Program-made: the position numbers and the translations under genes
Source: Bacteroidota bacterium
GTDB taxonomy: Bacteria; Bacteroidota; Bacteroidia; B-17B0; Aurantibacillaceae
Direction of reading: 5' to 3'
DNA: 64,000 nucleotides
NCBI GenBank assembly: GCA_013297775.1
Contig: JAAFIL010000001.1
Span: 1 to 64,000, forward strand
Notes under the pieces: generated by a model
Told to the model about the DNA's origin: nothing
Seen by the model: only the letters and a program-made list of their open reading frames with translations
The model's database searches: none
Shown here: positions 16,015-32,153 of the stretch, one piece after another
Layout of the letters: each line of letters starts with the position of its first letter
Numbering within the stretch: position 1 is the stretch's first letter

Positions 16015-17037
16015 ATGATAAGGGTGCAAAGCAAGGTAAATTTAAAACCTTATAACACGTTTGGGTTAGCGGTAACCGCCGATTATTTTGTTGAAGTTTT
16101 TACAGAAAACGATTTTATTGAATTGCTCGACCATGGTATTTATAAAACCAATCCACATTTAATAATTGGAGGAGGCAGTAATATTTTATTGTGTACCGAT
16201 TTTAAAGGCTTGGTTATTAAAAATAGTATTACAGGCATTCATTCTAACAAATCTAGCGAAGATAAAATAATAGTGAAAGTTGGTGCTGGCGAAGTGTGGC
16301 ATCATTTGGTGCAATATACACTCGAACAGGGGTGGAGTGGTTTAGAAAATTTATCATTAATACCTGGCTGTGTAGGTGCAAGCCCTATGCAAAACATAGG
16401 GGCTTATGGTGTCGAAATAAAAGATTGTTTTTATGAATTAGAAGCCTTACATGTAAAAACTGGACAGAAACGTATTTTTTCTAAAGCCGACTGTTTGTTT
16501 GGCTACCGTGAAAGTATTTTTAAGCAAGCCGAAAAAGGAAATTATTTTATTACCAACGTTTCGTTTATTTTAGATGGCAAGCCCAAAATAAATACATCGT
16601 ATGGTTCTATTAAAGAAGAACTAACGCAAATGGGTATTAACCATCCCAGTATTAAAGATGTGGCGCAGGCCGTTGTAAATATTCGGCAAAGTAAATTACC
16701 CGATCCAAAAATAATTGGTAATGCAGGTAGCTTTTTTAAAAACCCAGAGGTAAGTGCCGAGGTGTATCAAACTTTAAAAGCGACGCATGAAAATTTAGTA
16801 GCCTATTTATTGCCCAGTGGCAAATATAAGTTAGCAGCGGGTTGGCTCATCGAAGCCTGCGGGTTGAAAGGCTATGAACAAAATGGTGCGGCAGTGCACG
16901 CTAAACAAGCGTTAGTGCTAATCAATAAAAATAATGCCACGGGTCAAAGTATTTTCGATTTATCTACAGTGGTAAAGAAAACGGTGCAAGATAAATTTGG
17001 AGTAACTTTAGAACGCGAAGTAAATATTATACCCTAA
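16015..17037 (+). CDS. murB: UDP-N-acetylmuramate dehydrogenase MurB
   Basis: This 340-residue FAD enzyme reduces UDP-N-acetylglucosamine enolpyruvate to UDP-N-acetylmuramate for peptidoglycan synthesis in the cytoplasm. Visible motifs are the N-terminal YNTFGL, the FAD-binding GGGSNILL, LSLIPGCVGASPMQNIGAYGVE, FGYRESIFK with the type I loop, GNAGSFFKNPE carrying the catalytic serine, and a C-terminal AGWLIEACGLKG. Length fits the longer type I MurB, as in E. coli. The next gene starts on the base after its stop, placing this cell wall gene at the head of a surface polysaccharide operon. Confidence 0.96.
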   Translation: MIRVQSKVNLKPYNTFGLAVTADYFVEVFTENDFIELLDHGIYKTNPHLIIGGGSNILLCTDFKGLVIKNSITGIHSNKSSEDKIIVKVGAGEVWHHLVQYTLEQGWSGLENLSLIPGCVGASPMQNIGAYGVEIKDCFYELEALHVKTGQKRIFSKADCLFGYRESIFKQAEKGNYFITNVSFILDGKPKINTSYGSIKEELTQMGINHPSIKDVAQAVVNIRQSKLPDPKIIGNAGSFFKNPEVSAEVYQTLKATHENLVAYLLPSGKYKLAAGWLIEACGLKGYEQNGAAVHAKQALVLINKNNATGQSIFDLSTVVKKTVQDKFGVTLEREVNIIP

Positions 17038-18405
17038 ATGATAAAAGTTGTTGTTGATTTTTTTATTTACCTAAACTTGTTCTTTACGGGTTATACATTT
17101 TTTAAGCAGCCGTTCGAATTTAATATTTCATACATACCTATTCTTTTATTACTTCCCATTTTTATTGCCCGCTATAAGTTTAACCCGAAAACGCTTTACA
17201 TTATTATTCCGCTGTTGCTGGCTGGAATAATTAATATTTTAATAGGAAACGATAACCTAGGTAGCTTCTTTAAAATATTCTTAAACATTTCCATTAATTT
17301 GATTTTTTACGAATACGTGATGCAGCACTACGAGTATAACGTAAAATATATGTTTAAGCTATACCTAAAGGGCTGTTTTATTGTGGCGTGTTATGGTATT
17401 ATTCAATTAATTTCTTTCCACCTTGGCTTTAAGTACGGTTGGAATTTACGTTTGATTATGCCTTTAAATAAATGGGCGGTTGTAGTTGGGGGTTTAGGCA
17501 TTCGTGTTAATAGTTTCCTGTCCGAACCTGCTTATGTGGCCTCGGCTCTTGGGCCTTGTTTTTTAGTTTCTATTTATGCTTTACTAACACGGCAGTTTTT
17601 TTTCTTAACTGCGCGGGCGGCTTGGATAAATATTATTTGTTATGTGATTACCTTTTCTTCTTTAGCCTTTGCGGGTATTTTTATAGCCATGCTATTGTTA
17701 GCTTTAAACTTCGGCTTATTGCGTTACCTCGCTTTAATCGTTCCTGTTGTTATTATACTTTACGCTATTATTTACAACAATTCGGTTGAGTTTAGAGACC
17801 GTATAAATGGGTTAGATAAGTTATTTGTGCAAGGGGTACTTGACGAACGTCAAAAAAAGGATGAAGGCGTAACGGTTATATCCAAACGCGAGATGATATC
17901 GCGGCGGTCGTTTGTGAAAGAAGTGCATGGGTCGTCGTTTATTTTGTATAACAATTACTATGTAGCTAAGCAAAATTTTCTGCGAAATCCTTTGTTGGGT
18001 GCCGGACTTGGCTCGCACGAGATTGCCTTCGAGAAATACGATTTAAGCGGTTTGATAGGCGATATTTATAACTTTAATGGTAAAGATGCCAATTCCATGT
18101 TTTTAAGAACGCTTTCTGAAATTGGTTTAATGGGCGTTGGATTTATTTTATTATTCATTTTTAAATTCTATGTATCGCACGATATTTTAGGAAACGAAGA
18201 AAATAGGTTTTGGATAATATCGAATGCTTTGTTAATTGTTATTCTCATCCAACTGTTTAGGCAAGGCAATTACACCTTTAATGGTTTTTTTATGTACGCA
18301 TGGATGTATTATTACAACTACATCAATTATGAAGATTATAAACAGCGTAAAGAAAAAGAAATACAAGAACAAATAAGTCAACCCGCAAACGAGGCATTAA
18401 CATGA
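17038..18405 (+). CDS. O-antigen ligase/polymerase-like membrane protein
   Basis: This 455-residue integral membrane protein has about ten hydrophobic segments and one long soluble loop (about 245-340). The loop ends in RNPLLGAGLGSHEIAFE, the motif region typical of Wzy_C/WaaL family proteins. Such proteins polymerise or ligate undecaprenyl-linked glycan units at the outer face of the inner membrane. The surrounding glycosyltransferases, epimerase and acetyltransferase agree with this role. It begins immediately after murB, and its stop overlaps the next gene's start (ATGA). Polymerase and ligase cannot be told apart from sequence alone. Confidence 0.8.
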   Translation: MIKVVVDFFIYLNLFFTGYTFFKQPFEFNISYIPILLLLPIFIARYKFNPKTLYIIIPLLLAGIINILIGNDNLGSFFKIFLNISINLIFYEYVMQHYEYNVKYMFKLYLKGCFIVACYGIIQLISFHLGFKYGWNLRLIMPLNKWAVVVGGLGIRVNSFLSEPAYVASALGPCFLVSIYALLTRQFFFLTARAAWINIICYVITFSSLAFAGIFIAMLLLALNFGLLRYLALIVPVVIILYAIIYNNSVEFRDRINGLDKLFVQGVLDERQKKDEGVTVISKREMISRRSFVKEVHGSSFILYNNYYVAKQNFLRNPLLGAGLGSHEIAFEKYDLSGLIGDIYNFNGKDANSMFLRTLSEIGLMGVGFILLFIFKFYVSHDILGNEENRFWIISNALLIVILIQLFRQGNYTFNGFFMYAWMYYYNYINYEDYKQRKEKEIQEQISQPANEALT

Positions 18406-19451
18406 AGGTATTGATTTTATATGAAGAACTAGCCACTTACTTTTTAAATGCGTTAATAGAATTAGCCACAACGCATAAGGCTACCGTTTTAATTTTTATG
18501 AAACCCATCAACGCAGTTGCACCTTTTGAGTTTAAAAATTATCCTGATACCATTGAAATTGTTGACCGACACACACTCACTGCAAATGCTTTGAAAGAAC
18601 GCATTTGCGCCTTTGAACCCGATGCCACTTATTTATCGGGCTGGATTTATAAACCCTACCTCCACTCTATTAAAGCACTAAAACTTAGGAATGTTGTTAT
18701 AGGTTTTGATAACCAGTACCGTGGAGATTTACGACAACTATTCGGAAGTTTTTACTTTCGTTGGTTTATTAAAAAAAATATTAAGGCCGCTTTTGTGCCT
18801 GGTAAAAAACAAGTGAAATTTGCAGAGCATCTAGGGTTTAGACCCAACGAAATAGCCGAGGGCTTATACTGTTGCGATGTTGATTTGTTTAATGATTATT
18901 ATTCGCATTCATACACCAAGAAACATCAACAATTACCCAAACGGTTTTTGTTTGTTGGCCGATACGTTCCCGAAAAAGGTATTGAAGCACTTTGGCAAGC
19001 CTTTGCCGAACTAGATAAAGAAGAGGATTTGAAATGGGAATTATGGTGCGTTGGCAAAGGATCTTTAGAAGCTTACGCGCATCCTAAAATTAAACACCTT
19101 GGCTTTTTGCAACCTCACGATTTACGAACGCTTATTACCGAAACAACGGTGTTTGTGTTGCCGAGCTCGTTTGAGCCTTGGGGCGTGGTTATTCAAGAGT
19201 ATGCCATTGCTGGGTTTCCCATTATTACAACCTCCTCGGTTGGTGCCGCCGAATTATTTGTGAACGATAAAATAAATGGATTTTTGTTGGCAGAAACAAG
19301 TGTAGCAGCAATTAAACAGGCTTTACAACAAATAGTAAATTTACCCGATAATAAAATTTTAGAGATGAGCGAAAGGAGTCATAACTTAGGCCTGCAATTA
19401 ACTCCTCAATTGTGGTGCGAACGATTTATACAATTAATTCATGGAAATTAA
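18402..19451 (+). CDS. glycosyltransferase family 1/4 (GT-B fold)
   Basis: This 349-residue cytoplasmic or membrane-associated enzyme has the typical C-terminal GT1/GT4 domain: KRFLFVGRYVPEKGIEAL, WELWCVGKGSLE, KHLGFLQPHDL, VFVLPSSFEPWGVVIQEYA with the E-x7-E donor-binding pattern, and FPIITTSSVGAAELF. The N-terminal acceptor domain is less conserved. It overlaps the polymerase gene by 4 bases and the epimerase gene by 11 bases, so it is translated as part of the same operon. It probably adds one sugar of the repeating unit; donor and linkage are not known. Confidence 0.9.
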   Translation: MKVLILYEELATYFLNALIELATTHKATVLIFMKPINAVAPFEFKNYPDTIEIVDRHTLTANALKERICAFEPDATYLSGWIYKPYLHSIKALKLRNVVIGFDNQYRGDLRQLFGSFYFRWFIKKNIKAAFVPGKKQVKFAEHLGFRPNEIAEGLYCCDVDLFNDYYSHSYTKKHQQLPKRFLFVGRYVPEKGIEALWQAFAELDKEEDLKWELWCVGKGSLEAYAHPKIKHLGFLQPHDLRTLITETTVFVLPSSFEPWGVVIQEYAIAGFPIITTSSVGAAELFVNDKINGFLLAETSVAAIKQALQQIVNLPDNKILEMSERSHNLGLQLTPQLWCERFIQLIHGN

Positions 19452-20412
19452 AAATAAGATATTAGTAACAGGCGGTGCTGGCAATATTGGTAGTGCCTTG
19501 GTGAATCGCTTACTCAAAAACGAAACGAATTTTGTAGTGGTGATAGATGATTTATCAACGGGCTTTCTTTACAAACTTCCCGATAGTTCGCAAGAGCGAT
19601 TTAAATTCATCAAGGCTAACGTTAATCAACTATCAGAAATAGCCCCTGTATTTTATTCGTTTAATTTCGATTACGTGTTTCATTTTGCAGCATTGGTTGG
19701 GGTTAAACGCACGCAAGAAAATCCGATTGCCGTATTGAACGATATTGATGGGATAAAAAATGTTTTACAACTCTCGAAAACATCGTCGGTAAAACACGTT
19801 TATTTTTCATCTTCGTCGGAGGTGTATGGCGAACCCGTTGAATTGCCTCAAAACGAATACCGCACGCCCCTCAACTCGCGCGTGCCTTATGCGGTTGTAA
19901 AAAATATTGGAGAATGTTATTTTAAAAGTTATTATCAAGAGTTTCAATTGCCTTATACCATTTTTCGCTTTTTTAATACTTATGGGCCTAATCAAAGTAC
20001 CGATTTTGTGGTGGCTAAATTTTTGGCTTCGGCTTTAAAAAATGAGGCTATACCTATTTATGGCGACGGTTCGCAAACGCGTACGTTTACTTATATTGAT
20101 GATAACATTGATGTGATTGAAAAAATAGTTGAGAATAAATTAATTATAAACGACGTTATTAATTTAGGTAACGACGAGTTGTTTACTGTTAAGGCATTGG
20201 CCGAACTAATTATTCGTGTTACCAACTCTACCTCGAAAATAATTTATTTAGACCCTTTGAAGGAAGGCGATATGACACGCCGTCAACCTGATAATGAAAA
20301 AATGAAACACATTTTAAACAGGTCGCTTACATCGCTAGAGGAAGGGGTGAAGCGTATGATGACTAATTCTTTGTTTCTTGAATCTATTGGTATAAAAGAT
20401 GTGCGGCATTAA
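19441..20412 (+). CDS. NAD-dependent sugar-nucleotide epimerase/dehydratase
   Basis: This 323-residue extended short-chain dehydrogenase carries the Rossmann motif GGAGNIGSAL near the N-terminus, VVIDDLSTG, the core DYVFHFAALVGV, the active site serine/threonine segment YFSSSSEVYGE and the catalytic YAVVK. The later NTYGPNQ and DGSQTRTFTYIDD segments are typical of UDP-glucose 4-epimerase-like enzymes. It supplies a modified nucleotide sugar for the glycan built by this operon. The exact reaction (epimerisation, decarboxylation or dehydration) is uncertain. Its coding region overlaps asnB by 14 bases. Confidence 0.92.
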   Translation: MEIKNKILVTGGAGNIGSALVNRLLKNETNFVVVIDDLSTGFLYKLPDSSQERFKFIKANVNQLSEIAPVFYSFNFDYVFHFAALVGVKRTQENPIAVLNDIDGIKNVLQLSKTSSVKHVYFSSSSEVYGEPVELPQNEYRTPLNSRVPYAVVKNIGECYFKSYYQEFQLPYTIFRFFNTYGPNQSTDFVVAKFLASALKNEAIPIYGDGSQTRTFTYIDDNIDVIEKIVENKLIINDVINLGNDELFTVKALAELIIRVTNSTSKIIYLDPLKEGDMTRRQPDNEKMKHILNRSLTSLEEGVKRMMTNSLFLESIGIKDVRH

Positions 20413-22288
20413 CGGTATCCTATCCAACTCGCTCAACGAATTGGAGCAAGCCCAAATGATTGAGGTCATGAATAAGGCACTGCACCACCGTGGCCCCGAT
20501 GATACAGGCATTTTTCAAAATGGAAAAATAGCACTCGGACATACACGTTTGGCTATTATTGATTTAAGTGCCAATGGTCATCAACCTTTTTTTAGTAGCA
20601 ACCAACGCTACGTGATGGTGTTTAATGGCGAAATTTATAATTACAAAGAATTAAAATTAGAACTGCAACGGGTTGCCCAAGGCAGTTCAGATTTACCTTA
20701 TTTTTTTAAAACAGATACCGATACCGAAGTGGTAATGGCGGCTTTCATTCGGTGGGGCGCAAAGTGTTTAAATTATTTGAATGGCATGTTTGCCTTTGCC
20801 ATTTACGACACACATAAAAATTCGGTTTTTATAGCGCGCGATCGCATGGGTGTTAAACCCTTGTATTTTAATTATTCAGACAAGGGCTTTATTTTTTCGA
20901 GTGAGGTGAGAGCCATTTTAAAATCAGGCATCCAATCGTTTTCGTTAAACCACAGTGTGTTGGCCGAGTATGCGCAGTATCAAACGGTTTCGGCACCCAA
21001 CACCATTGTTAAAGGCATTCAAGTTTTACAAGCTGGGCATTACCTCGAAATTGTTGATCAAAAAGTACATCAAACAGCATATTGGCAAGCCCCTCATTTT
21101 ATTACAACTACTAACGCTTTATCGTATTCGGAAACGTGTCAAAAAATTAATGAGTTACTCAGTTTATCAGTACAACGCCGTTTAATAGCCGATGTGCCAT
21201 TTGGAGCTTTTTTATCAGGGGGTATAGACTCTAGTATTGTTGTAGGGCTAATGGCTAAGGTTTCATCCGAACCCATACAAACGTTTAATGTATCGTTCGA
21301 TGAAGATGCGTTTTCTGAATCGGTATATGCCCGAAGTATTGCCAAACGATTTAATACACAACACCACGAAATTCGATTAACGCCACAAGATTTTTTAAAC
21401 GACTTACCCTATGCGTTAATGGCAATGGATCACCCTGGTGGAGATGGTATTAACACTTACGTTGTTGCCAAAGCAACACGAAAAGCTGGAATAACCATGG
21501 CTTTAAGTGGCGTCGGTGGCGATGAACTTTTTGCGGGATACCCCAATTTTAAACGGTTACATCATTTACAAAACGATTGGCGTTTAAAACTGGCACCACC
21601 ATTGGTACGAAAAATGATTGCATTGGGTTTAGAATGTACCTCAACACGTATTAGTAAAGCAAAAATAGCCGAGGTGCTGCGTTTACCAGATTTTGGTTTA
21701 CAACAAACTTATCCCCTGAGTAGAAGTTTATTTACCAAGAAGGAACTAAACAAGCTCGTAAAAGATTCATCTATTGCTTGGGGTGCATTGTCTTTTCTTG
21801 AATCAAAAAAAATAAATGCAAATGCCATATTGAGTTATACTTCTGTTTTGGAAATGAATAGTTATTTACAAAACGTGTTATTACGCGACACCGATCAAAT
21901 GGCAATGGCTGTGGCCTTAGAGGTAAGAGAACCCTTTTTAGATGTGAAACTGGTTGAGTTTGTTTTGGGTATAAACGATGCCATGAAGTTTCCGCACTCG
22001 CCTAAAAAATTGTTAGTAGATAGTGTTGAAGGCTTAATTCCAAAAGAAATTACCGAACGATCTAAAATGGGTTTTGTTTTACCTTGGGCCAATTGGATGC
22101 GCCTCGAATTAAAACCGTTTTGCGAGGCACAAATTTTAAGTTTAGAAAACAAACAGATTTTTAAGCCCGGTGCTATTTTAGAACTGTGGAAACGATTTTT
22201 GCAAAATGATAATCGGGTAACTTGGTCGCGGGTGTGGCATTTTATAACCTTAAACTATTGGATGGAGGCCACCAAAATTGAAATCTAA
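20399..22288 (+). CDS. asnB: glutamine-hydrolysing asparagine synthase-type amidotransferase
   Basis: This 629-residue protein begins MCGINGI, so the nucleophilic cysteine directly follows the initiator. The class II glutaminase domain shows HHRGPDD, GHTRLAIIDL and FNGEIYNY. The synthetase domain contains the pyrophosphate loop SGGIDSS, SGVGGDELFAGYP and, near the C-terminus, REPFLDVKLVEF. Such genes within polysaccharide clusters often amidate a sugar acid or related carboxylate instead of making free asparagine. The overlaps with epimerase (14 bases) and glycosyltransferase (11 bases) genes favour that role here, but this is inference. Confidence 0.93.
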   Translation: MCGINGILSNSLNELEQAQMIEVMNKALHHRGPDDTGIFQNGKIALGHTRLAIIDLSANGHQPFFSSNQRYVMVFNGEIYNYKELKLELQRVAQGSSDLPYFFKTDTDTEVVMAAFIRWGAKCLNYLNGMFAFAIYDTHKNSVFIARDRMGVKPLYFNYSDKGFIFSSEVRAILKSGIQSFSLNHSVLAEYAQYQTVSAPNTIVKGIQVLQAGHYLEIVDQKVHQTAYWQAPHFITTTNALSYSETCQKINELLSLSVQRRLIADVPFGAFLSGGIDSSIVVGLMAKVSSEPIQTFNVSFDEDAFSESVYARSIAKRFNTQHHEIRLTPQDFLNDLPYALMAMDHPGGDGINTYVVAKATRKAGITMALSGVGGDELFAGYPNFKRLHHLQNDWRLKLAPPLVRKMIALGLECTSTRISKAKIAEVLRLPDFGLQQTYPLSRSLFTKKELNKLVKDSSIAWGALSFLESKKINANAILSYTSVLEMNSYLQNVLLRDTDQMAMAVALEVREPFLDVKLVEFVLGINDAMKFPHSPKKLLVDSVEGLIPKEITERSKMGFVLPWANWMRLELKPFCEAQILSLENKQIFKPGAILELWKRFLQNDNRVTWSRVWHFITLNYWMEATKIEI

Positions 22289-23462
22289 AACAACCTTATT
22301 AATTTGCGTAGATTGGTTTTGGCCGGGCTATTTAGCCGGGGGGCCTGTTCGTTCGGTAATAGCACTTATTGAAGCACTTCGTAACGAGATAGATTTTAAA
22401 GTAATTACGCAAAATGGAGATATAGATAACAAACCTTACGCAGACATAACGCCCAATTGCTGGGTAACATCTCCGCTTGGCTGTTTAGTGTATTACGTTT
22501 CGAAGGAGGAGTTAACGGCTAAACGTTTACGGATTTTACTCACCGAAACGACTTATGATGCTGTTTATTTGAATAGTTTTTTCTCGTATTACTTTTCCAT
22601 TTTGCCCCTTCGTATTTTGCATACGTTACCGCATTCTAAACGAATCATATTGGCTCCAAGAGGGATGCTTGGTAAAGGTGCTTTGGCCTTAAAATCGTTT
22701 AAAAAGAAATTGTTTCTGGTGTATGCGAAATTATCTGGTATTTATAAACAGGTTCAATGGCATGCCACATCCGAACAAGAAGTAGCGGAAATAAAAGCCG
22801 CAATGGGTGCCGCAATACGCATTGTTAACATTGCCAACTTAACGGTGTTTAAAAAGTCTGACTTAAAAATTAAACCGAAAAGCAAAGGCATACTTCGGTT
22901 GTGTTTTATTTCGCGTATTAGTCCTAAAAAAAACTTAACGTATGCCTTGCAAGTTTTATCAACCGTGCAAGAGGCAACCATTCAGTTTTCGATTTTTGGA
23001 CCCATAGAAGATTCATCCTATTGGAACGAATGTGAAAAAATAATAAAGACGCTTCCTGATAACATCACCGTCAATTATAAGGGCAGTTATCAACCTGAGC
23101 AAATTGTAGCGGTATTAAACAGTGTAGATGTTTTAATGTTGCCCACCTTGAATGAAAATTTTGGACATGTTATTGTAGAAAGTATGTTGAATGGCGTACC
23201 TGTTATTATTAGCGACCAAACCCCTTGGCGTAGGCTGCAAGCGGCCAAAGCTGGTTTCGACTTGGTATTAGGCGCACCTCAACACTTTAAAACAGCTTTG
23301 TTATTTTATGCCCAATTAACCGAGTTAGAAATGCACCAACACGCACAATGGGCGCAAAATTATATGGTGGAACAGTTAAATGAAGCAACCACCGTTTTAA
23401 AATATCAACACTTATTTTGTAAAGATGAATCGTATGATGCAAACCAATCTATCGGCTTTTAA
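22278..23462 (+). CDS. glycosyltransferase, GT4-like
   Basis: This 394-residue enzyme starts with TTG, overlapping asnB by 11 bases. The N-terminal part has VDWFWPGYLAGGPVRSVIALIEAL, as in GT4 enzymes that bind an acceptor through a Gly-rich loop. The C-terminal domain has LCFISRISPKKNLTYAL, FSIFGPIED, YKGSYQPEQI and LPTLNENFGHVIVESMLNG, with the E-x7-E-like donor site, and GVPVIISDQTPW. It probably works with the acetyltransferase whose gene overlaps its 3' end by 38 bases. Start codon choice rests on the conserved N-terminal segment; donor unknown. Confidence 0.88.
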   Translation: MKSKTTLLICVDWFWPGYLAGGPVRSVIALIEALRNEIDFKVITQNGDIDNKPYADITPNCWVTSPLGCLVYYVSKEELTAKRLRILLTETTYDAVYLNSFFSYYFSILPLRILHTLPHSKRIILAPRGMLGKGALALKSFKKKLFLVYAKLSGIYKQVQWHATSEQEVAEIKAAMGAAIRIVNIANLTVFKKSDLKIKPKSKGILRLCFISRISPKKNLTYALQVLSTVQEATIQFSIFGPIEDSSYWNECEKIIKTLPDNITVNYKGSYQPEQIVAVLNSVDVLMLPTLNENFGHVIVESMLNGVPVIISDQTPWRRLQAAKAGFDLVLGAPQHFKTALLFYAQLTELEMHQHAQWAQNYMVEQLNEATTVLKYQHLFCKDESYDANQSIGF

Positions 23463-23985
23463 TAATAAATGGTATAAACCTGGCGGCTCGCTGTTAAAGC
23501 GTTTGGTTTGGTATCAGATAAACATTTTATTTTTTAAATCGGCTTTTCCATTTTATGGTGCCAAAAGAGCCTTATTGCGATTATTTGGTGCTGAGGTAGG
23601 CTCGGCTGTTGTTATAAAACCTCACGTATCTATAAAATACCCTTGGCGACTAAAAATAGGTAACTTTGTATGGATTGGCGAACAAGTATGGATAGACAAT
23701 TTAGAACTAATTACTATAAAAGATAACGTGTGTATTTCGCAAGGAGCTCTTTTATTGTGCGGCAATCATAACTACAAAAAAGTAACGTTCGACTTAATGG
23801 TTGGAAAGATTTGTTTAGAAGAAGGAGCGTGGGTAGGTGCCAAAGCAATTGTTTGCCCAGGTGTAACGCTTCATAGTCATGCGTTATTAACCGTGGGAAG
23901 CGTTGCTGTGAGCAGTTTAGAGGCTTATGGCATTTACCAAGGAAACCCTGCTGTAAAAATTAGGGTGCGACAAATTAAAAATTAA
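23425..23985 (+). CDS. WcaF-type left-handed beta-helix acetyltransferase
   Basis: This 186-residue protein belongs to the hexapeptide-repeat acyltransferases, closest by eye to the colanic acid acetyltransferase WcaF. The N-terminus carries NKWYKPGGSLLKRLVWY and PFYGAKRALLRLFGAEVGS. The coil has imperfect hexapeptide repeats (VWIGEQVWIDNLELITIKDNV, split in the sequence) and the active-site region CGNHNYK. It ends with a typical GVTLHSHALLTVGSV segment. It likely O-acetylates a sugar of the surface polysaccharide using acetyl-CoA in the cytoplasm. It is the last gene of the overlapping operon begun by murB. Confidence 0.87.
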   Translation: MNRMMQTNLSAFNNKWYKPGGSLLKRLVWYQINILFFKSAFPFYGAKRALLRLFGAEVGSAVVIKPHVSIKYPWRLKIGNFVWIGEQVWIDNLELITIKDNVCISQGALLLCGNHNYKKVTFDLMVGKICLEEGAWVGAKAIVCPGVTLHSHALLTVGSVAVSSLEAYGIYQGNPAVKIRVRQIKN

Positions 23986-24079
23986 TGCTATTGATAGTTA
24001 GTATAATTTGACGAAAGGCACAAATTACTATATAAAAAACTTGCTTTTCTAAATTTACACTATTAATTTAGAAGTGTAA

Positions 24080-24457
24080 TTGACAACAAACGTGAACGAA
24101 AAAAAGAGAATAATTACTCGAACGAACCAGCTTCCTCAAGTTGATTTTGATATTGCAAAAGGCATACTCGATATAAGAGGCAAAATTGTACCCGAAAATC
24201 CGAGCGATTTTTTTAAGGAGTTAGATACATGGGTTAGCGAATATACTGTGCGCACCAACTCGTCGGTGGAGGTGAACATGTACTTGGATTATTTTAATAC
24301 TGTATCTTCAAAAATGCTATCGAAGTTCTTACAAAAAATGCTCCCCAATAACCCGCGTTTAAATTGGTACTACGAATTAGAAGACATTGAAATTAAAGAA
24401 GCGGGCGAAGATTATGCCGCTATTTTAAATTACCCCATCAACGTTATTCAAGCCTAA
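24080..24457 (+). CDS. SiaC-family regulatory phosphoprotein (DUF1987)
   Basis: This 125-residue protein resembles SiaC, the phosphorylation-controlled partner protein of the Pseudomonas SiaABCD pathway. Matching features are the N-terminal TRTNQLPQVDFDIAKGIL and IRGKIVPENPSDFF, the middle EVNMYLDYFNTVSSKML (about 65-80) where the phosphorylatable threonine region of SiaC lies, and a C-terminal DYAAILNYPI. In that pathway, a kinase and a PP2C/SpoIIE phosphatase control binding of SiaC to its partner. A SpoIIE phosphatase gene follows 204 bases downstream. The start is TTG at 24080, or GTG at 24092. Family assignment is good; the cellular target is unknown. Confidence 0.85.
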   Translation: MTTNVNEKKRIITRTNQLPQVDFDIAKGILDIRGKIVPENPSDFFKELDTWVSEYTVRTNSSVEVNMYLDYFNTVSSKMLSKFLQKMLPNNPRLNWYYELEDIEIKEAGEDYAAILNYPINVIQA

Positions 24458-24661
24458 TTTACTTTTATTTTAAATTTTAGTACCACGCTTAATTCATTCT
24501 TCCCGTTTACGGACTTGGCACGCCATTCTTATAGCAAATGATTTATAATTTGGTATTATACCATTTCAACAAACCTTTGCGAAATAAACCGTAAGTACAA
24601 ATGCACATTTATTCGCTTAGAAGCCAAAAAAGTGTATTTTTAGGGTTGTTTTATACTACTT

Positions 24662-27600
24662 GTGAAGGTTTCAAAATTTTTATTAGCACTTATTTTATTT
24701 GGTTTACTAACTATTAAATCAAATGTTTGCGCTCAAAAACAAAATGCGGTACTTGATGAGGTGAGCCTTGATGGCATTACAAACACCTTTATTAATGCCA
24801 TTTTCCAAGATAGCAAAGGCTATATGTGGCTAGGCACTATTGCTGGGCTTAACCGTTACGATGGGTATAACTTTACCAATTACCGCAGCTTTATGAACGA
24901 TAGCACCAGCCTTAGTTCGCCTCAGGTTAGTTGTATTATAGAGTTAAAAGATAAACGTGTATTGGTAGGAACCACAAAAGGACTAAGTATTTATTCGCAG
25001 GCTAGTAATTCGTTTAAGCGTGTATTTGTTCCTGGCAACGCAAAAGACGAATCGTATTTACGGAAGCAAAGAATACGATGTTTATTCATTACACGCGATG
25101 GGCAAATTTTATGTGGCACATCGAGCGGCGTGTATGTATTTAACGAACTCAATAATACTTTATCGCCTTTAAAATATGGTAAGGAAGCCTATTTAAACGA
25201 TTGGATAGTTCAATCCATTATGCAAGATAGAGGCGGAGCAATTTGGTTTGGAGCCAAGAAACAGCAAAATGATAAACCCATTTTTCGGGTATTTAAACTC
25301 AATTTAAACACCCTTAGTCAAAAAGAATTAGTGGTGAGCGATGGCGGCTCGTCGGGGCATTTGGGTATATCGGAAGATTATTTAGGGAACATTTGGGTAA
25401 GCACCGACGATGGTTTGGTTAGCATTAATCCTTCTAGCTTAAAGCAAACGTTTTATAAAAGTCCCGAAAATTTTTACTCAAATAGTTCGTACTACCACTC
25501 TAAAGATAATGTGATTTGGCAAGGCTTTTGGAGCTTTGGGGTAACAGCTTTTGATATAGACAAGAAGCAATTTACCGTTTACAAAAACGATCCTACCAAT
25601 CCACGCTCGTTAAACAGCAACAAGGTTTATTCTCTATTTAAAGACGATAACGAAATTATGTGGTTTGGTTCAGATGTAGGCTTACAAAAATTAACCAGCA
25701 AGCGTCCGAATCTCGAAATCATTTCTGGAAATTTTGATCCGTCGCATCCATTTGTATCGAACCGTTTTAGCCGTGTAGAATTATTGACCAAACACCCCGA
25801 AAAAATTTTAGTAGCCATTGACGGAGAAGGGTTTTCGATAGTAGATAAGTTGCTCAAACAAAATACGTTTTTTGGTCCACAAAGTGCCATTAAAAGCGAC
25901 GAACGTTTTGTGAACGATTTTTATGAAGATGAAGACGGAACGGTTTTTATAGGTGGGCAAAACAACTTTTCTAAACTCACGTTTGTGAATGATAAACCCA
26001 TTATTAAATCGTACTTTGAACATCAAGAACATTATGTATTTAGTATTATACCCGATAAATTGAACAAAGATATTTTTTGGTTATTGGGGGTCAACCAAAT
26101 TATTAAATTCGATAAACGTACCGAGCAATTTGTATTTATTAATAAACCTGGCGGCTTAGAGCAAATGTTTGAAAACGGCTTCATGGATAAGGAAACGCTT
26201 TATTTGCTGCATAAAGATGGCATTTTAAAATACAATACCTTAACCGCCGTAACCGAAGACATTGTTATAAATGATGTAGGTGCATTAACCAACTGCATTG
26301 TGCTTGATAAAAATAACATCATGCTTAGTTCGCAGTACCAAGGTTTAATACGTTACGATCTTAAAGCGAGGAACTACATCGTAGAATTAAACCAAGGAAA
26401 ATACTTTCCAGAAATTTCGCATTTAAAAAACTACCGAGGTAAAATTTGGATTTCGACATCGAATGGATTATATACTTGGAAAACATCGAATAAAGACGTG
26501 ATGTATTACAGTAAAATAGATGGCTTACCTAGCAATATTATTTATAACGTTGAGGAAAAAGATGGCTACTTATATTTAGCCACACATGCTGGGCTTTGTA
26601 TTTTTAATCCCAATTTCAATCAAACACATTTTAACATGCCCAAAGTTGATATTATTGGACTTTATGGCATTGATGGTTCGTTTAATTACGATGTGGATCT
26701 TAACCTCAACTCCGAAATTAATTTACAAGAAAAACAAAATTCATTTAAAATTAAATTTACGGTACTTGATTTTAATCTCCCCGAAAAAAACATTTATAAA
26801 TACCGTTTATTGCCTATTGAATCGGATTACAGTTCCTTTGTAACGCTGAATGAAGCCATCTATAATGGGTTGCCCATTGGCGATTATGAGTTTCAAGTAA
26901 TTGGATCGAACAGCGATGGTATGCAAAATTTTGAACCTGTTACCATGAAAATACACATCATTCCACCATTTTATAAATCCAAATGGTTTTATGTGTTAAG
27001 CGGATTAAGTCTTTTGGTTCTTGTTAGTTTCATTGTACTTTACCGCATTCGAATTAATAAACAAAGTACCGAAAAATTAGAGCGGGTTATTTTTGAACGC
27101 ACCAACGAAATTGAACAGAAACGAAAAGAATTAAGCGAGAGCAGCTCGAAGACAAACTCACTAATCAATAACACCAAAGATTGCTTACTTCTTTTAGATA
27201 AAGACGGGTGTGTGGTATTGGTAAATGAAACGTTTAAACAGTTGTATGCCAAAATAGGGATGGATGTTAAACAAGGCGAATTATTTGTTGCGCAATTGCC
27301 ACCACTGTTTAGAGAACGTTTTGTTGGCTCTATCAATAAATTAAAAACCGATACTTCGGCCGAGCACGAGGATGTGTTTGATGTTGACAACTCGCGATTT
27401 TATTACATTACAAGTTTAAACACTATTTATGCCGAAGATGGATCTATTATTGGATACACCATTTTTAGTAAAGATTACACTGCAATAAAAACGGTTCAAC
27501 AAGAACTAACGCAACTGTCGCTGGTGGCCAGTAAAACCGATAGTGCAATTATCATTACCGACGAACAAGGTAAAATAGAATGGGTTAATAAATCGTTCGA

Positions 27601-28654
27601 GCGGTTGAGTGGGTATTCGTTAATGGAAGTGGTGGGTAAAAAACCTGGGCATATTTTACAAGGGCCTCGCTCTAACCAAGAAACGATAAAGTTTATCCGC
27701 GAAAAATTACTCGAACAAGTCGCCTTCACCGCCGAAGTTATCAATTACTCGAAAAGCGGGAACGAGTATTGGTTAACGTTAAACATATCGCCTGTTTACG
27801 ACGATAAAAAAGTACTCAAAAACTTTATTGCCGTTCAACAAGATATTACTGAGCGTAAACAACTCGAAGGCGAATTGTTATTTCAACGAAACGAATTGCA
27901 ACAAACCAATAAAGAGTTAATAGATAGCATTAACTATGCCGAACGGATTCAAAAAGCCATTTTGGTAGGTGAACAAGCATTACGAATTAATTTGCCCGAA
28001 AGTTTTATTTACTTTCAACCTAAAGATAGGGTGAGTGGCGATTTTTATTGGATAGGACGTGAAGGAAATTATTTAGTAATTGTTGCCGCCGATTGCACAG
28101 GACACGGTGTGCCAGGAGCCATGCTGAGTATGATTGGTACCTCGTTACTTAACAAAATTGTTTATGAAGATAATTGTTATTTGCCGGGCGATGTGATGAA
28201 ACGCTTAAACACACTTTTTTACCGACAACTCAATTTGAAAGATACACCTTTGCGCGATGGGATGGATGCCTCGGCGTTAACGATAGATTTTGAACATAAT
28301 AAAATGTATTTCTGCGGTGCACGAAACTCGGGGTTTATGATTAGTAGTTCTGAAATTACCGAATTAAAAGCGCAACGCGATTCGGTAGGTGAAAACGAAT
28401 ACATTGATTTTGTTAGCCTCGAAATACCTTATCAAAAAGGAAACATGTATTACTTATTTAGCGATGGATTTAAAGATCAGTTTGGTGGCCCCGAAGAGAA
28501 AAAACTAACCAGTAAACGATTTAGAGAAATATTGTTCAATGCTTCGTCTATGCCAATTAATGTGCAACAACATTTCATTGCCGAAAAATTAAATTTGTGG
28601 CGTGGTGGGTTACAACAAACAGATGATCTTTTGGTAATAGGATTAAAACTTTGA
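24662..28654 (+). CDS. propeller / Y_Y_Y / PAS / SpoIIE (PP2C) sensor phosphatase
   Basis: This 1330-residue protein begins with a signal peptide (MKVSKFLLALILFGLLTIKS). Repeated periplasmic two-component propeller blades follow (about 30-690; for example DSKGYMWLGTIAGLNRYDG), then a Y_Y_Y domain (about 700-765) and one membrane helix (about 776-797). The cytoplasmic side has a coiled coil, two PAS domains (about 833-945 and 946-1070) and a C-terminal SpoIIE phosphatase (about 1120-1330) with SGDFYWIG, ADCTGHGVPGAMLS, MDASAL and LFSDGFKDQFGG. The SpoIIE motifs show a complete metal-dependent serine/threonine phosphatase. The likely substrate is the SiaC-like protein encoded upstream. Its stop overlaps the next start (TTGA). 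Confidence 0.93.
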   Translation: MKVSKFLLALILFGLLTIKSNVCAQKQNAVLDEVSLDGITNTFINAIFQDSKGYMWLGTIAGLNRYDGYNFTNYRSFMNDSTSLSSPQVSCIIELKDKRVLVGTTKGLSIYSQASNSFKRVFVPGNAKDESYLRKQRIRCLFITRDGQILCGTSSGVYVFNELNNTLSPLKYGKEAYLNDWIVQSIMQDRGGAIWFGAKKQQNDKPIFRVFKLNLNTLSQKELVVSDGGSSGHLGISEDYLGNIWVSTDDGLVSINPSSLKQTFYKSPENFYSNSSYYHSKDNVIWQGFWSFGVTAFDIDKKQFTVYKNDPTNPRSLNSNKVYSLFKDDNEIMWFGSDVGLQKLTSKRPNLEIISGNFDPSHPFVSNRFSRVELLTKHPEKILVAIDGEGFSIVDKLLKQNTFFGPQSAIKSDERFVNDFYEDEDGTVFIGGQNNFSKLTFVNDKPIIKSYFEHQEHYVFSIIPDKLNKDIFWLLGVNQIIKFDKRTEQFVFINKPGGLEQMFENGFMDKETLYLLHKDGILKYNTLTAVTEDIVINDVGALTNCIVLDKNNIMLSSQYQGLIRYDLKARNYIVELNQGKYFPEISHLKNYRGKIWISTSNGLYTWKTSNKDVMYYSKIDGLPSNIIYNVEEKDGYLYLATHAGLCIFNPNFNQTHFNMPKVDIIGLYGIDGSFNYDVDLNLNSEINLQEKQNSFKIKFTVLDFNLPEKNIYKYRLLPIESDYSSFVTLNEAIYNGLPIGDYEFQVIGSNSDGMQNFEPVTMKIHIIPPFYKSKWFYVLSGLSLLVLVSFIVLYRIRINKQSTEKLERVIFERTNEIEQKRKELSESSSKTNSLINNTKDCLLLLDKDGCVVLVNETFKQLYAKIGMDVKQGELFVAQLPPLFRERFVGSINKLKTDTSAEHEDVFDVDNSRFYYITSLNTIYAEDGSIIGYTIFSKDYTAIKTVQQELTQLSLVASKTDSAIIITDEQGKIEWVNKSFERLSGYSLMEVVGKKPGHILQGPRSNQETIKFIREKLLEQVAFTAEVINYSKSGNEYWLTLNISPVYDDKKVLKNFIAVQQDITERKQLEGELLFQRNELQQTNKELIDSINYAERIQKAILVGEQALRINLPESFIYFQPKDRVSGDFYWIGREGNYLVIVAADCTGHGVPGAMLSMIGTSLLNKIVYEDNCYLPGDVMKRLNTLFYRQLNLKDTPLRDGMDASALTIDFEHNKMYFCGARNSGFMISSSEITELKAQRDSVGENEYIDFVSLEIPYQKGNMYYLFSDGFKDQFGGPEEKKLTSKRFREILFNASSMPINVQQHFIAEKLNLWRGGLQQTDDLLVIGLKL

Positions 28655-30417
28655 GAATTGGTGGGTGTATATTCGTTTTGTTACAACTAATGCTGAATGC
28701 GGTTTTAGCGCAAGATACCATACGTCTTACCGAAAAAACAACCGAACGCTATTTAGCCCGAAGCGATTATTTCATGCTTCAAAAAGAAGGTTGGAGTATT
28801 GATGATGCCATGGCTAATGCCGACTTGTTTGAAGCAACGGCAAAGCACCCACTTACTTTAAGAGGAACTAGTAAACAAACCACGTGGATAAAATTTTACC
28901 TTTCTAACCCAAGCCAAGTTAGTTTTTTACAACTTAGTCATACACACTTAGAAAAACTTAAAATTTATTTTTTTATTCCTAGTAAAGACACACTCATCAC
29001 CAAAAATCTAAGTCTAATTAATCGAAATAAAATTAATTATAAGTTTAAATACCCCACTGTTGTAATTCCTAAATACGATAAAATAACCTGTTACATCGAA
29101 CTTAATGCTGGAGGTAATACCTCTTCATCCGACATCATCTTATCAACCCGCGACCAGTTGTTTAAAAGCGAAGTTGCAAAAAATGTGCATTACGGCATTT
29201 ACTTTGGTGCTATGTTTTTATTAATATTCATTTATGGCTTGGTTTATGCGTTAACCCGAAACATTGGTAATGTTTTTTTTATGCTTTTTTTAGTTTCGTT
29301 TCTAATGTACATTGCCATCTCGTGTGGCTTGTATTACCTTTATTTACCCCCTTGGATAAATAAAATACTAAGCAGTAAATGGGCTCCCGCTATGTGGGTT
29401 AATTTAAGTTGCCTCTCGGCCTGCGCCTACTCGCGTCGCTATTTGTTTGGTAACTTTTCTTTAAAAAGTGTTTACATAAGTCCTCATATTATTTTTTCGA
29501 TTTTAATTCTTTTAGTTATTCCATTTGGAAACGTTTCTCTTTTTCATGCGTTATCGCATATCAATATGGTTGTGGCTTCTTTGGTCATTTTCTATAGTTT
29601 TCTATTCAAATCGCCCTATTTACACCGCACAAGCAAGTATATTATTTTAACAGGAAATAGTATTTTTAGTCTTATCGCCTTTACCAACATTTTAGCTTAC
29701 GAAGGTTTTATAACCATCTCTTCCAATTTGAATAATACCTTATTAGAAATTGCTGGGCTTACGCAAGCTATCTTCAATGCTTTGGGTCATTTCATCTTAT
29801 ACTTAAAAGAACAATCGGATGTTAACAAACAACTTATCAAAGAACAAGAGCGCATTATACGCTTACGAATGGATGAAAATTCGTTTAAACGCGAGCGGGT
29901 TAAAAATTTACAAGATAAAAAAGAACGCGCGCAGAAAGGTTTAAACGACATCCAACTGGAGTTAGCCTCTATTGCTACCGAGATAGAAGAAAATAATAAT
30001 GCCATACTTATTGGGAGTAAAAACCAAGCAAAGGTGAGCCGACAAATTGCCGAAAATAGTTTTGTTTCAAAAGATATTTTAAACAGTTTGCCCGACATGG
30101 TAATTATTGTAGATGATGAATTAAAAGTAATAGACTACAACGATAAGTTTGAAAAGATGAATAAAATAATGGGTATTCAAATTACAAGAGGTCAAAATTT
30201 AATCTCTCAAATTAACCCTACTTTTCGGCAGCATTACGAGAAACATTACGCAATGGCTTTTTCGCAAAACAGAGCCATTACTAAACCCGTATTTTATAAG
30301 AATGCCATTTTAACCGATGGGTATTGGTTAAATATTACTTACAAAGTTTTTAGCGTACCCGAGTTGCCAAGCAAACGGTTTTGCGCAGCTTTTGCTAAAC
30401 ATAAATTAACAAAATGA
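28651..30417 (+). CDS. 7TMR-DISM receptor with coiled coil and PAS domain, no output domain
   Basis: This 588-residue protein has a signal peptide, a periplasmic 7TMR-DISMED2-like domain (about 30-165; QTTWIKFYLSNPS is typical), seven predicted helices (about 185-380), a charged coiled coil (about 390-455) and a PAS domain (about 465-580; LPDMVIIVDDELKVIDYNDKF). No kinase, phosphatase or cyclase follows the PAS. The TTG start overlaps the phosphatase stop by 4 bases, and no nearer ATG keeps the signal peptide. It probably senses a periplasmic ligand and acts on a partner through the coiled coil or PAS, perhaps the SpoIIE protein. Confidence 0.85.
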   Translation: MRIGGCIFVLLQLMLNAVLAQDTIRLTEKTTERYLARSDYFMLQKEGWSIDDAMANADLFEATAKHPLTLRGTSKQTTWIKFYLSNPSQVSFLQLSHTHLEKLKIYFFIPSKDTLITKNLSLINRNKINYKFKYPTVVIPKYDKITCYIELNAGGNTSSSDIILSTRDQLFKSEVAKNVHYGIYFGAMFLLIFIYGLVYALTRNIGNVFFMLFLVSFLMYIAISCGLYYLYLPPWINKILSSKWAPAMWVNLSCLSACAYSRRYLFGNFSLKSVYISPHIIFSILILLVIPFGNVSLFHALSHINMVVASLVIFYSFLFKSPYLHRTSKYIILTGNSIFSLIAFTNILAYEGFITISSNLNNTLLEIAGLTQAIFNALGHFILYLKEQSDVNKQLIKEQERIIRLRMDENSFKRERVKNLQDKKERAQKGLNDIQLELASIATEIEENNNAILIGSKNQAKVSRQIAENSFVSKDILNSLPDMVIIVDDELKVIDYNDKFEKMNKIMGIQITRGQNLISQINPTFRQHYEKHYAMAFSQNRAITKPVFYKNAILTDGYWLNITYKVFSVPELPSKRFCAAFAKHKLTK

Positions 30418-32153
30418 GGAGGCTTAAACGGGCATATACACTTATTGTGCTATTAAAGTATGTGTTGGTGCTGCATGGGCAGCAGGCTGCTGTTCAACTA
30501 AAGCCAAGTATTTATAAATTAGAGCTTGAACCTTTTACAAGTGTTTACCAAACGGCTAAACCACAAGCCATGCCAGCGTTTATAAAAGATAATTGGAAAG
30601 CATTTAAACCTTGTGAACGAGAAACCTTTTTTATAAAGGCCTCTATGAACTTTACTTATCTTAAAATTAATTTTCAAAATCATTCTTCTACTAAACAAGA
30701 TTATGTAGTTCAATTAAAAGAAAGCGTTTTACCTCATGTACGTTTTTTTTGGTATAATATAGATAGAGATACTAGCTACGAACTTATCTTGGATAGAGGC
30801 AGCCGAACGCCTGTCATTAGGATTCCTTCACTAAAAAAACTTTCTAAAGGCATCTTATTAATCGAGCTTCAATCTAAAAGTAATTCGACACTGGCACCAA
30901 TTTATCTTTTCCTCGAAAATGTTTACTACGACTTTGAGTTAAATTTTATTTTTGCTTACTCCTTATTTTTTGGTGTGTTTATACTGGAATTAATTTTAAT
31001 TATTTACTCTATCTACCTATCCAAAAAAAGACTTAATCTTTACTACTGTTTAGCCATTTTTTCTATTATCCTCTATTTATTTGTTACAAGAGGATATATT
31101 TTTATAGTTCAAGATTCGAATTGGCAATTGCCGTCTTATGCACCGCTTTTAATCTATCTAGTGGGTTATATTTTTCTTATTCTTTTTTTCTATAAACTTT
31201 TTCAGCCCGATGTATCTAAATGGATGAGCCGCATCACGCTTTCACTCTCGTTTTTAGCAATAGCCCTTGTTTTTTTAATGATGGGCAACACGTTGTGGAG
31301 TGCTCAATTATCGGAGGTAATTACGGTGTTCTTAGTTGTTATTGTGCTGTTCAACGCTATCTTTCTTCTCAATAAAGCATTTACAAAGTATGTTTATTTT
31401 ACATTCGGTTTAGTGTTGGCTGCTTTATTTTATGGTTTAAACTTTGCACTCGTACACGATTTTTTACCAAATACTACGTTAACCTATTATGGATTTGATT
31501 TAGCACTTTGTTTAATGACTTTATTTATTACGATTGGATTAATTAGAAATGTTTTTTCGGAGCGATTGATGGGCGAACGTTTAATAAAAGAAAACCAAAT
31601 TGCATTAATTGAGCAAGAGAATAAATTAAATGCACATATTGAAGAAGAGAATAAAGCCTTGTTAAACGAAACAGATGAGTTTTACAAGCAAATTAATGGC
31701 GTAAAACAATCTATTCAACAAAAACGGATTCAATTAAAGCAAAGCGAAAATACCCTAAATGAAATCGAAACCATTATCCGAAGTGCAGATATATTAATTG
31801 AAGATGCCAAAAGCAAATACTTTTTTTATTTGAATTTATCGGATGATCAAATTGTATTAATAGACTCAGCTAATGGCGACATAAGGTTTACGAATGCCGC
31901 CATGAAACGCTATTTTAATTTGGATGACACCGACGATACACCTTCCATTTTTAAGTTGTTCTCCGAAAAAGAAAAAGAAGGGATACTAGCCATTCTCAAT
32001 CGAGTGTTTAATGGGTACTATTACCTTTCTGTTTTAAAAACGCCTGTATTAGCTACGGGAGAAGTTTCATCGTTTAATTATCAATTTATTCCTATCAAAC
32101 GTAATAATGGTAAAGTGGTAATGACACTTATGTATGCCATAGAAGCTAGCTAA
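30414..32153 (+). CDS. second 7TMR-DISM receptor with coiled coil and divergent PAS domain
   Basis: This 579-residue protein has the same layout as the gene before it: signal peptide, DISMED2-like periplasmic domain (about 25-170), seven helices (about 180-380; LFFGVFILELILIIYSIYLS begins them), a coiled coil (about 390-455) and a PAS-like region (about 460-575; DDQIVLIDSANGDIRFTNAAM). Sequence identity between the pair is low, so the duplication is old. It also lacks an output domain. Its ATG overlaps the previous stop by 4 bases, so three genes in succession are translationally coupled. Confidence 0.83.
   Translation: MRRLKRAYTLIVLLKYVLVLHGQQAAVQLKPSIYKLELEPFTSVYQTAKPQAMPAFIKDNWKAFKPCERETFFIKASMNFTYLKINFQNHSSTKQDYVVQLKESVLPHVRFFWYNIDRDTSYELILDRGSRTPVIRIPSLKKLSKGILLIELQSKSNSTLAPIYLFLENVYYDFELNFIFAYSLFFGVFILELILIIYSIYLSKKRLNLYYCLAIFSIILYLFVTRGYIFIVQDSNWQLPSYAPLLIYLVGYIFLILFFYKLFQPDVSKWMSRITLSLSFLAIALVFLMMGNTLWSAQLSEVITVFLVVIVLFNAIFLLNKAFTKYVYFTFGLVLAALFYGLNFALVHDFLPNTTLTYYGFDLALCLMTLFITIGLIRNVFSERLMGERLIKENQIALIEQENKLNAHIEEENKALLNETDEFYKQINGVKQSIQQKRIQLKQSENTLNEIETIIRSADILIEDAKSKYFFYLNLSDDQIVLIDSANGDIRFTNAAMKRYFNLDDTDDTPSIFKLFSEKEKEGILAILNRVFNGYYYLSVLKTPVLATGEVSSFNYQFIPIKRNNGKVVMTLMYAIEAS

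Follow-up and report, generated by a model that had tools for sequence, protein, structure and literature searches.

The established role of SiaC is to activate a cyclic di-GMP (c-di-GMP) cyclase. In the 64,000-nucleotide stretch of DNA analysed here (the window; contig JAAFIL010000001.1 of assembly GCA_013297775.1, a Bacteroidota bacterium of the Aurantibacillaceae), a gene for a SiaC-like phosphoprotein is followed on the same strand, after a gap of 204 bases, by genes for a large sensor phosphatase with a SpoIIE domain and for two 7TMR-DISM receptors. This arrangement raises the question of whether the four genes form one signalling system, as an earlier reading made from the letters of the DNA (the sequence-only reading) had proposed. 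The four open reading frames that it described are present, as are the 4-base overlaps at the phosphatase/receptor 1 and receptor 1/receptor 2 junctions. The gene order in relatives, however, indicates that the locus very probably consists of two modules, one in which SiaC belongs to a polysaccharide cluster and one made up of the phosphatase and the receptors. That these are two independent modules lying side by side is the explanation that we favour overall, with moderate confidence.

The SiaC-like gene is the last gene of a surface-polysaccharide cluster

The SiaC-like protein (24080–24457, + strand; 125 amino acids) passes the PF09345 (DUF1987) model with 95 bits against a cut-off of 24.5, which bears out its earlier assignment; the NCBIfam SiaC equivalog model gives it 49 bits, below the 150-bit cut-off of that model. 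Its gene is the last of a surface-polysaccharide cluster, which we propose as the first module (16015–24457) and whose genes all lie on the + strand. The genes 5′ of SiaC encode, in order, a MurB-type protein (16015–17037; MurB_C 101.8 bits), a Wzy-like membrane protein of the O-antigen polymerase/ligase type (17038–18405; Wzy_C E = 0.005, below cut-off), a GT4 glycosyltransferase of a subtype that accompanies SiaC (GT4a; 18402–19451; Glycos_transf_1 89 bits), an NAD-dependent sugar epimerase/dehydratase (19441–20412; Epimerase 166.6 bits), an AsnB-type amidotransferase (20399–22288; Asn_synthase 270.8 bits), a second GT4 glycosyltransferase (GT4b; 22278–23462; Glycos_transf_1 59 bits) and, as the final enzyme, a hexapeptide (WcaF-like) acetyltransferase (23425–23985; Hexapep 25.9 bits, slightly below the 27-bit cut-off).

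The position of SiaC next to the acetyltransferase gene is conserved. Eight genomes from two genera (G000, which is the genome of the window, and G027, G033, G024, G014, G008, G046 and G083) carry SiaC directly 3′ of that gene and in the same orientation. In G096 it is found 1.5 kb beyond the acetyltransferase gene, and in G028 contig ends leave its position relative to that gene undecided. The ortholog in G027 is 83% identical and likewise stands at the end of a polysaccharide cluster. The SiaC proteins linked to this cluster form a single clade (support 92/89), present in 96% of bootstrap trees, and none of the members of this clade has an adjacent SiaB gene, whereas 29 of the 31 other SiaC proteins in the tree have one. 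On balance we lean towards a role for SiaC in controlling the polysaccharide.

Among the other members of the cluster, the Wzy-like gene is variable, with a 71% identical counterpart in G027 and none found between the MurB-type gene and GT4a in G033 and G024, and GT4b has a match at E ≤ 1e-50 in 117 of 199 relatives. The MurB-type gene heads the cluster in many relatives as well. A RelA/SpoT-type gene, its identity read from the sequence, is convergent with the cluster in 22 of the 29 acetyltransferase-bearing clusters examined that lack SiaC, mostly overlapping the end of the acetyltransferase gene by a few bases (L149–L184).

The phosphatase and receptor genes form a separate unit

The genes for the phosphatase (24662–28654), receptor 1 (28651–30417) and receptor 2 (30414–32153), all on the + strand, are rare. 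Among the 199 relatives searched, the receptor-1 gene is present in two, the genome of the window and G027 (the G199 record, source of locus L061, has the same contig coordinates as G027, and the two are counted as one genome). It was found in no further genome of a 395-genome sample of the phylum, nor in the other relatives that carry a cluster-linked SiaC. In G027 the three genes have the same order and overlaps as in the window, with a phosphatase that is 78% identical and a receptor 2 that is 51% identical. There they sit behind a ComF-like gene (identified from its open reading frame alone), with no SiaC adjacent, and on a different contig from the SiaC ortholog. The GC content of the three genes, 0.32–0.36, is marginally below that of the window (0.374) and gives no clear sign of recent transfer.

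A 19-base block, CAAAAAAGTGTATTTTTAG (24625–24643, + strand), is identical 5′ of the phosphatase gene in the two genomes despite unrelated upstream genes, and lies 11–19 bases 5′ of the assumed phosphatase start in both; the longest run shared in 2000 shuffles was 15 bases. Because this block is identical before the phosphatase in both genomes, the three genes probably have a promoter of their own, the block being probably a promoter element or some other 5′ signal carried along with them. A generic sigma-70 scan of the gap between SiaC and the phosphatase gave results at chance level, and the strict Bacteroidetes −33/−7 motif was not found there. The second module would thus extend from approximately 24625 to 32153 and would comprise the sensor phosphatase with its promoter-like block and the two receptors.

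The sequence-only reading had itself named a lack of conserved gene order as grounds against its proposal, and for SiaC this is what the comparison shows. Since the synteny of SiaC with the other three genes is not conserved and the phosphatase has a separate 5′ block, we rejected a single four-gene unit; the coupling of the phosphatase to the two receptors stands, and the inclusion of SiaC does not. We consider it improbable that, in the species of the window, the phosphatase nevertheless dephosphorylates the neighbouring SiaC under the control of the two receptors. Such an arrangement would be consistent with the shared strand and the short gap, with the best NCBIfam match of the SpoIIE region, which is the SiaA model (164 bits, below the cut-off of 700), and with the occurrence elsewhere of operons shared by a propeller-SpoIIE protein, SiaB and SiaC (contig C67 of the window's genome; L070 and L071). 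The order is lost, however, in the only other genome that has the three genes, the phosphatase is preceded by its own conserved block, and its SpoIIE domain is not placed among the SiaB-linked ones. In the SpoIIE tree, by which we considered a tie to the SiaB-linked phosphatases, the domain is not grouped with them and takes no firmly resolved place. The SiaABC-like link between the window SiaC and the adjacent phosphatase thus found no support in the genomic comparisons, and we regard action of this phosphatase on this SiaC, under whatever control, as doubtful.

The propeller, PAS and SpoIIE domains that the sequence-only reading gave to the phosphatase (1330 amino acids) are borne out: matches to Reg_prop (81 bits) and Y_Y_Y (35 bits) are followed by a transmembrane segment, a coiled coil, two PAS stretches (PAS1 and PAS2) and a SpoIIE domain (54.9 bits, cut-off 25). 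Inspection revealed intact SpoIIE motifs (GDFYW at residue 1126, ADCTGHG at 1143, DGMD at 1199, SDG at 1267 and TDDLL at 1320), so that the protein has both the domain match and the metal-binding aspartate motifs of a SpoIIE/PPM phosphatase.

SiaC partners and output in genomes without GGDEF proteins

In Pseudomonas, SiaB phosphorylates SiaC at T68, in the peptide LLYLNTSSIK (PMC7647112), and unphosphorylated SiaC binds the stalk of SiaD (PMC8457831). T74 of the SiaC-like protein aligns with this threonine (YFNT versus YLNT) and is kept in all nine aligned members of the cluster-linked clade. The genome of the window (4.35 Mb in 128 contigs, 99.99% complete) encodes six SiaC, seven SiaB (DUF6272) and 17 SpoIIE proteins. 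Each of the five SiaC genes outside the window has a SiaB gene nearby, and the window SiaC has none; the absence of a SiaB-like kinase from the window, as earlier reported, is correct, all seven being encoded elsewhere in the genome. One of these elsewhere-encoded kinases would phosphorylate T74. We considered an orphan kinase on contig C100 as the dedicated partner. This gene is conserved and kinase-like, has no adjoining SiaC, and follows a deoxynucleoside-kinase-like gene in 30 of 30 loci examined (L079:194–1399; L119–L148), with a neighbour that is 88–98% identical. It is family-wide, occurring also in genomes that lack a polysaccharide-linked SiaC, and is therefore not specific to the window SiaC; it is still a candidate.

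The window had been said to hold no GGDEF protein, and this extends to the whole genome, in which a search gave no match. The same search gave no match in any of 80 relatives and was positive in eight control genomes. Since no GGDEF protein is detected, the SiaC output cannot run through a SiaD-type GGDEF cyclase; and because the clade sits in bacteria without a detectable GGDEF protein, its output must be something other than such a cyclase. The absence of GGDEF proteins makes it the best inference that SiaC acts directly on one of the polysaccharide proteins. Consistent with this notion, DUF1987 proteins in general have been suggested to modulate adjacent proteins (PMC8457831).

A precedent is offered by SypA, a STAS phosphoprotein encoded at a polysaccharide locus of Vibrio fischeri, which is controlled by reversible serine phosphorylation and promotes polysaccharide-dependent biofilm formation by a mechanism that is not known (PMC4517449). 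Both cases have a small phosphoprotein at a polysaccharide locus, here one that adjoins the acetyltransferase gene in eight genomes. They differ in protein family, STAS for SypA and DUF1987/PF09345 here, and in the enzymes: SypE is both kinase and phosphatase, whereas here no SypE-like gene is present in the cluster and the kinases are encoded elsewhere. Phosphorylation of T74 might switch the binding of SiaC to a polysaccharide-assembly protein, as has been proposed for SypA. With SiaABCD of Pseudomonas aeruginosa the locus shares the SiaC family, the phosphosite region (LYLNTSS there, DYFNTVS here) and a genome that also encodes SpoIIE/PP2C and SiaB-like proteins (PMC7647112, PMC8457831). 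It differs in having no SiaD or GGDEF protein and no SiaB beside SiaC, and in that the adjacent propeller/PAS phosphatase belongs to a separate unit. A cyclase-free SiaC at a polysaccharide locus, beside an independent receptor/phosphatase set, is a new form of partner switching. The polysaccharide cluster supplies a short list of candidate SiaC targets, and the identity of the binding partner of the unphosphorylated switch protein, a question shared with SypA, becomes directly testable.

A glycosyltransferase subtype accompanies SiaC

Column comparison of the cluster proteins pointed to GT4a, the sole one clearly to differ between clusters with and without SiaC, by several columns and small indels. 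In AsnB a single column separates the SiaC-bearing clusters, no SiaC-specific features were found in the epimerase, GT4b or the acetyltransferase, and the MurB comparison included just two SiaC-bearing rows. The GT4a tree places all nine typed clusters that carry SiaC in a single group, which also takes in two others, so that the subtype is found in 9/9 typed clusters with SiaC versus 2/25 without. On the epimerase and AsnB backbone, a single clade of clusters with SiaC can be rejected (p-AU 0.012). An independent-pairs test of the association of SiaC with GT4a went in the same direction with only two supported pairs, and because the independent events are too few for a test, we treat the association, and GT4a as a possible SiaC target, as a lead.

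Alternatively, SiaC may be a passenger at the polysaccharide cluster, with the ordinary SiaB and SpoIIE proteins of the genome as its partners and a target unrelated to polysaccharide. Most clusters in the genus lack SiaC, and SiaC paralogs occur in many settings, for example next to genes for M16 peptidases or for an ABC transporter. We nonetheless think this unlikely given that the cluster-linked SiaC genes keep the same position in two genera, encode one clade and co-occur with one GT4a subtype.

Enzyme-less receptors as possible partners of the phosphatase

Both receptors (588 and 579 amino acids, respectively) match 7TMR-DISM_7TM (44.1 bits for receptor 1 and 45.5 bits for receptor 2, cut-off 29), and domain scans detected no enzyme domain in either, in agreement with the sequence-only reading. 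The PAS domains that it assigned to both fared differently. The tail of receptor 1, which follows a coiled coil, adopts a PAS fold in the predicted structure (low confidence, with an overall predicted local distance difference test score (pLDDT) of 50), whereas the PAS-like tail of receptor 2, behind a long coiled coil, is weak, its sole indications being a model of low confidence (mean pLDDT 45) and PAS-family fold matches. Receptor 1 also has a DISMED2 match of 22.0 bits, exactly at the cut-off, and its N-terminal domain resembles the periplasmic domain of RetS in fold matches; no extracellular DISMED domain was detected in receptor 2.

When the coiled-coil/PAS tail of receptor 1 was compared with its own genome, the sole non-self match was PAS1 of the phosphatase together with the preceding coiled coil (E = 5e-5). 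This kinship and the coupling of the genes fit a model of receptors that associate with the phosphatase and exert their effect at its linker, and the proposal that they modulate the phosphatase survives as a possible reading, which we judge somewhat probable. Contacts between coiled-coil/PAS regions would join the receptors to the phosphatase and thereby set the dimer state, and hence the activity, of the SpoIIE domain. Control of PPM phosphatases through dimerisation of a coiled-coil linker has been proposed as general (PMC12143880). As in RsbU, which is activated by RsbT, and other coiled-coil-linked PPM phosphatases, the SpoIIE-type domain here stands behind a linker that follows sensory domains; the proposed activators are membrane receptors, however, and not RsbT. 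The locus also resembles RetS/LadS–GacS in its 7TMR-DISM receptors, in the RetS-like periplasmic domain and in the idea of a receptor that modulates another signalling protein. Here the receptors lack a histidine kinase and the candidate partner is a SpoIIE phosphatase. The three genes are a candidate for transmembrane sensing that is split from a Ser/Thr phosphatase.

The substrate of the phosphatase may be any one of the SiaC or STAS proteins of the genome, and not necessarily the neighbouring SiaC. A further possibility is that the three genes serve a STAS or SiaC pathway outside both modules, ending for example in a sigma factor, with receptors that sense alone and make no contact with the phosphatase. 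No target gene lies beside the three genes in either genome, which would fit such a pathway, but the order and overlaps are conserved in both and the receptor 1 tail has its sole match in PAS1 of the phosphatase, and we regard this possibility as unlikely.

Several observations weigh against the explanation that we favour. In most relatives the polysaccharide cluster lacks SiaC, and SiaC must therefore be dispensable for the basic work of the cluster. The association with GT4a comes from few independent events, the two supported pairs. The receptor/phosphatase genes are known from only two genomes, the similarity between PAS domains may reflect common ancestry without contact, and the same-strand adjacency of SiaC and the phosphatase could reflect a regulatory link newly formed in this one species. 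The full proposal, in which the SiaC switch bypasses c-di-GMP and directly targets polysaccharide assembly, GT4a being a possible point of action, and in which the DISM receptors also serve a SpoIIE phosphatase as sensor subunits in trans, is tentative.

Other SiaC loci of the genome

Within this genome, contig C67 carries the operon that most resembles SiaABC; it encodes a propeller-SpoIIE protein, a 310-residue protein, SiaB and SiaC. The order of propeller-SpoIIE protein, unknown protein of approximately 270–310 residues, SiaB and SiaC is common to three families of the class (L070:2845–8193, L071:133–5466 and L075:831–5982) and is likely the true SiaABC counterpart.

Other SiaC genes lie in different settings. 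On contig C52, genes for SiaB and SiaC are followed in a row by two more, the first encoding a 377-residue protein that carries a SiaC domain at its C terminus and the second an ABC transporter of 1032 residues (L076:4045–9225); the 377-residue fusion is present in G027/G199 too (L086, L088), and the ABC transporter is a possible output of SiaC. The same contig carries genes for a TPR-SpoIIE phosphatase and a tandem SiaB pair, followed by SiaC (L077:4564–8666), and on contig C47 a divergent SiaC gene and a SiaB gene lie behind two M16 peptidase genes (L078:4831–8557).

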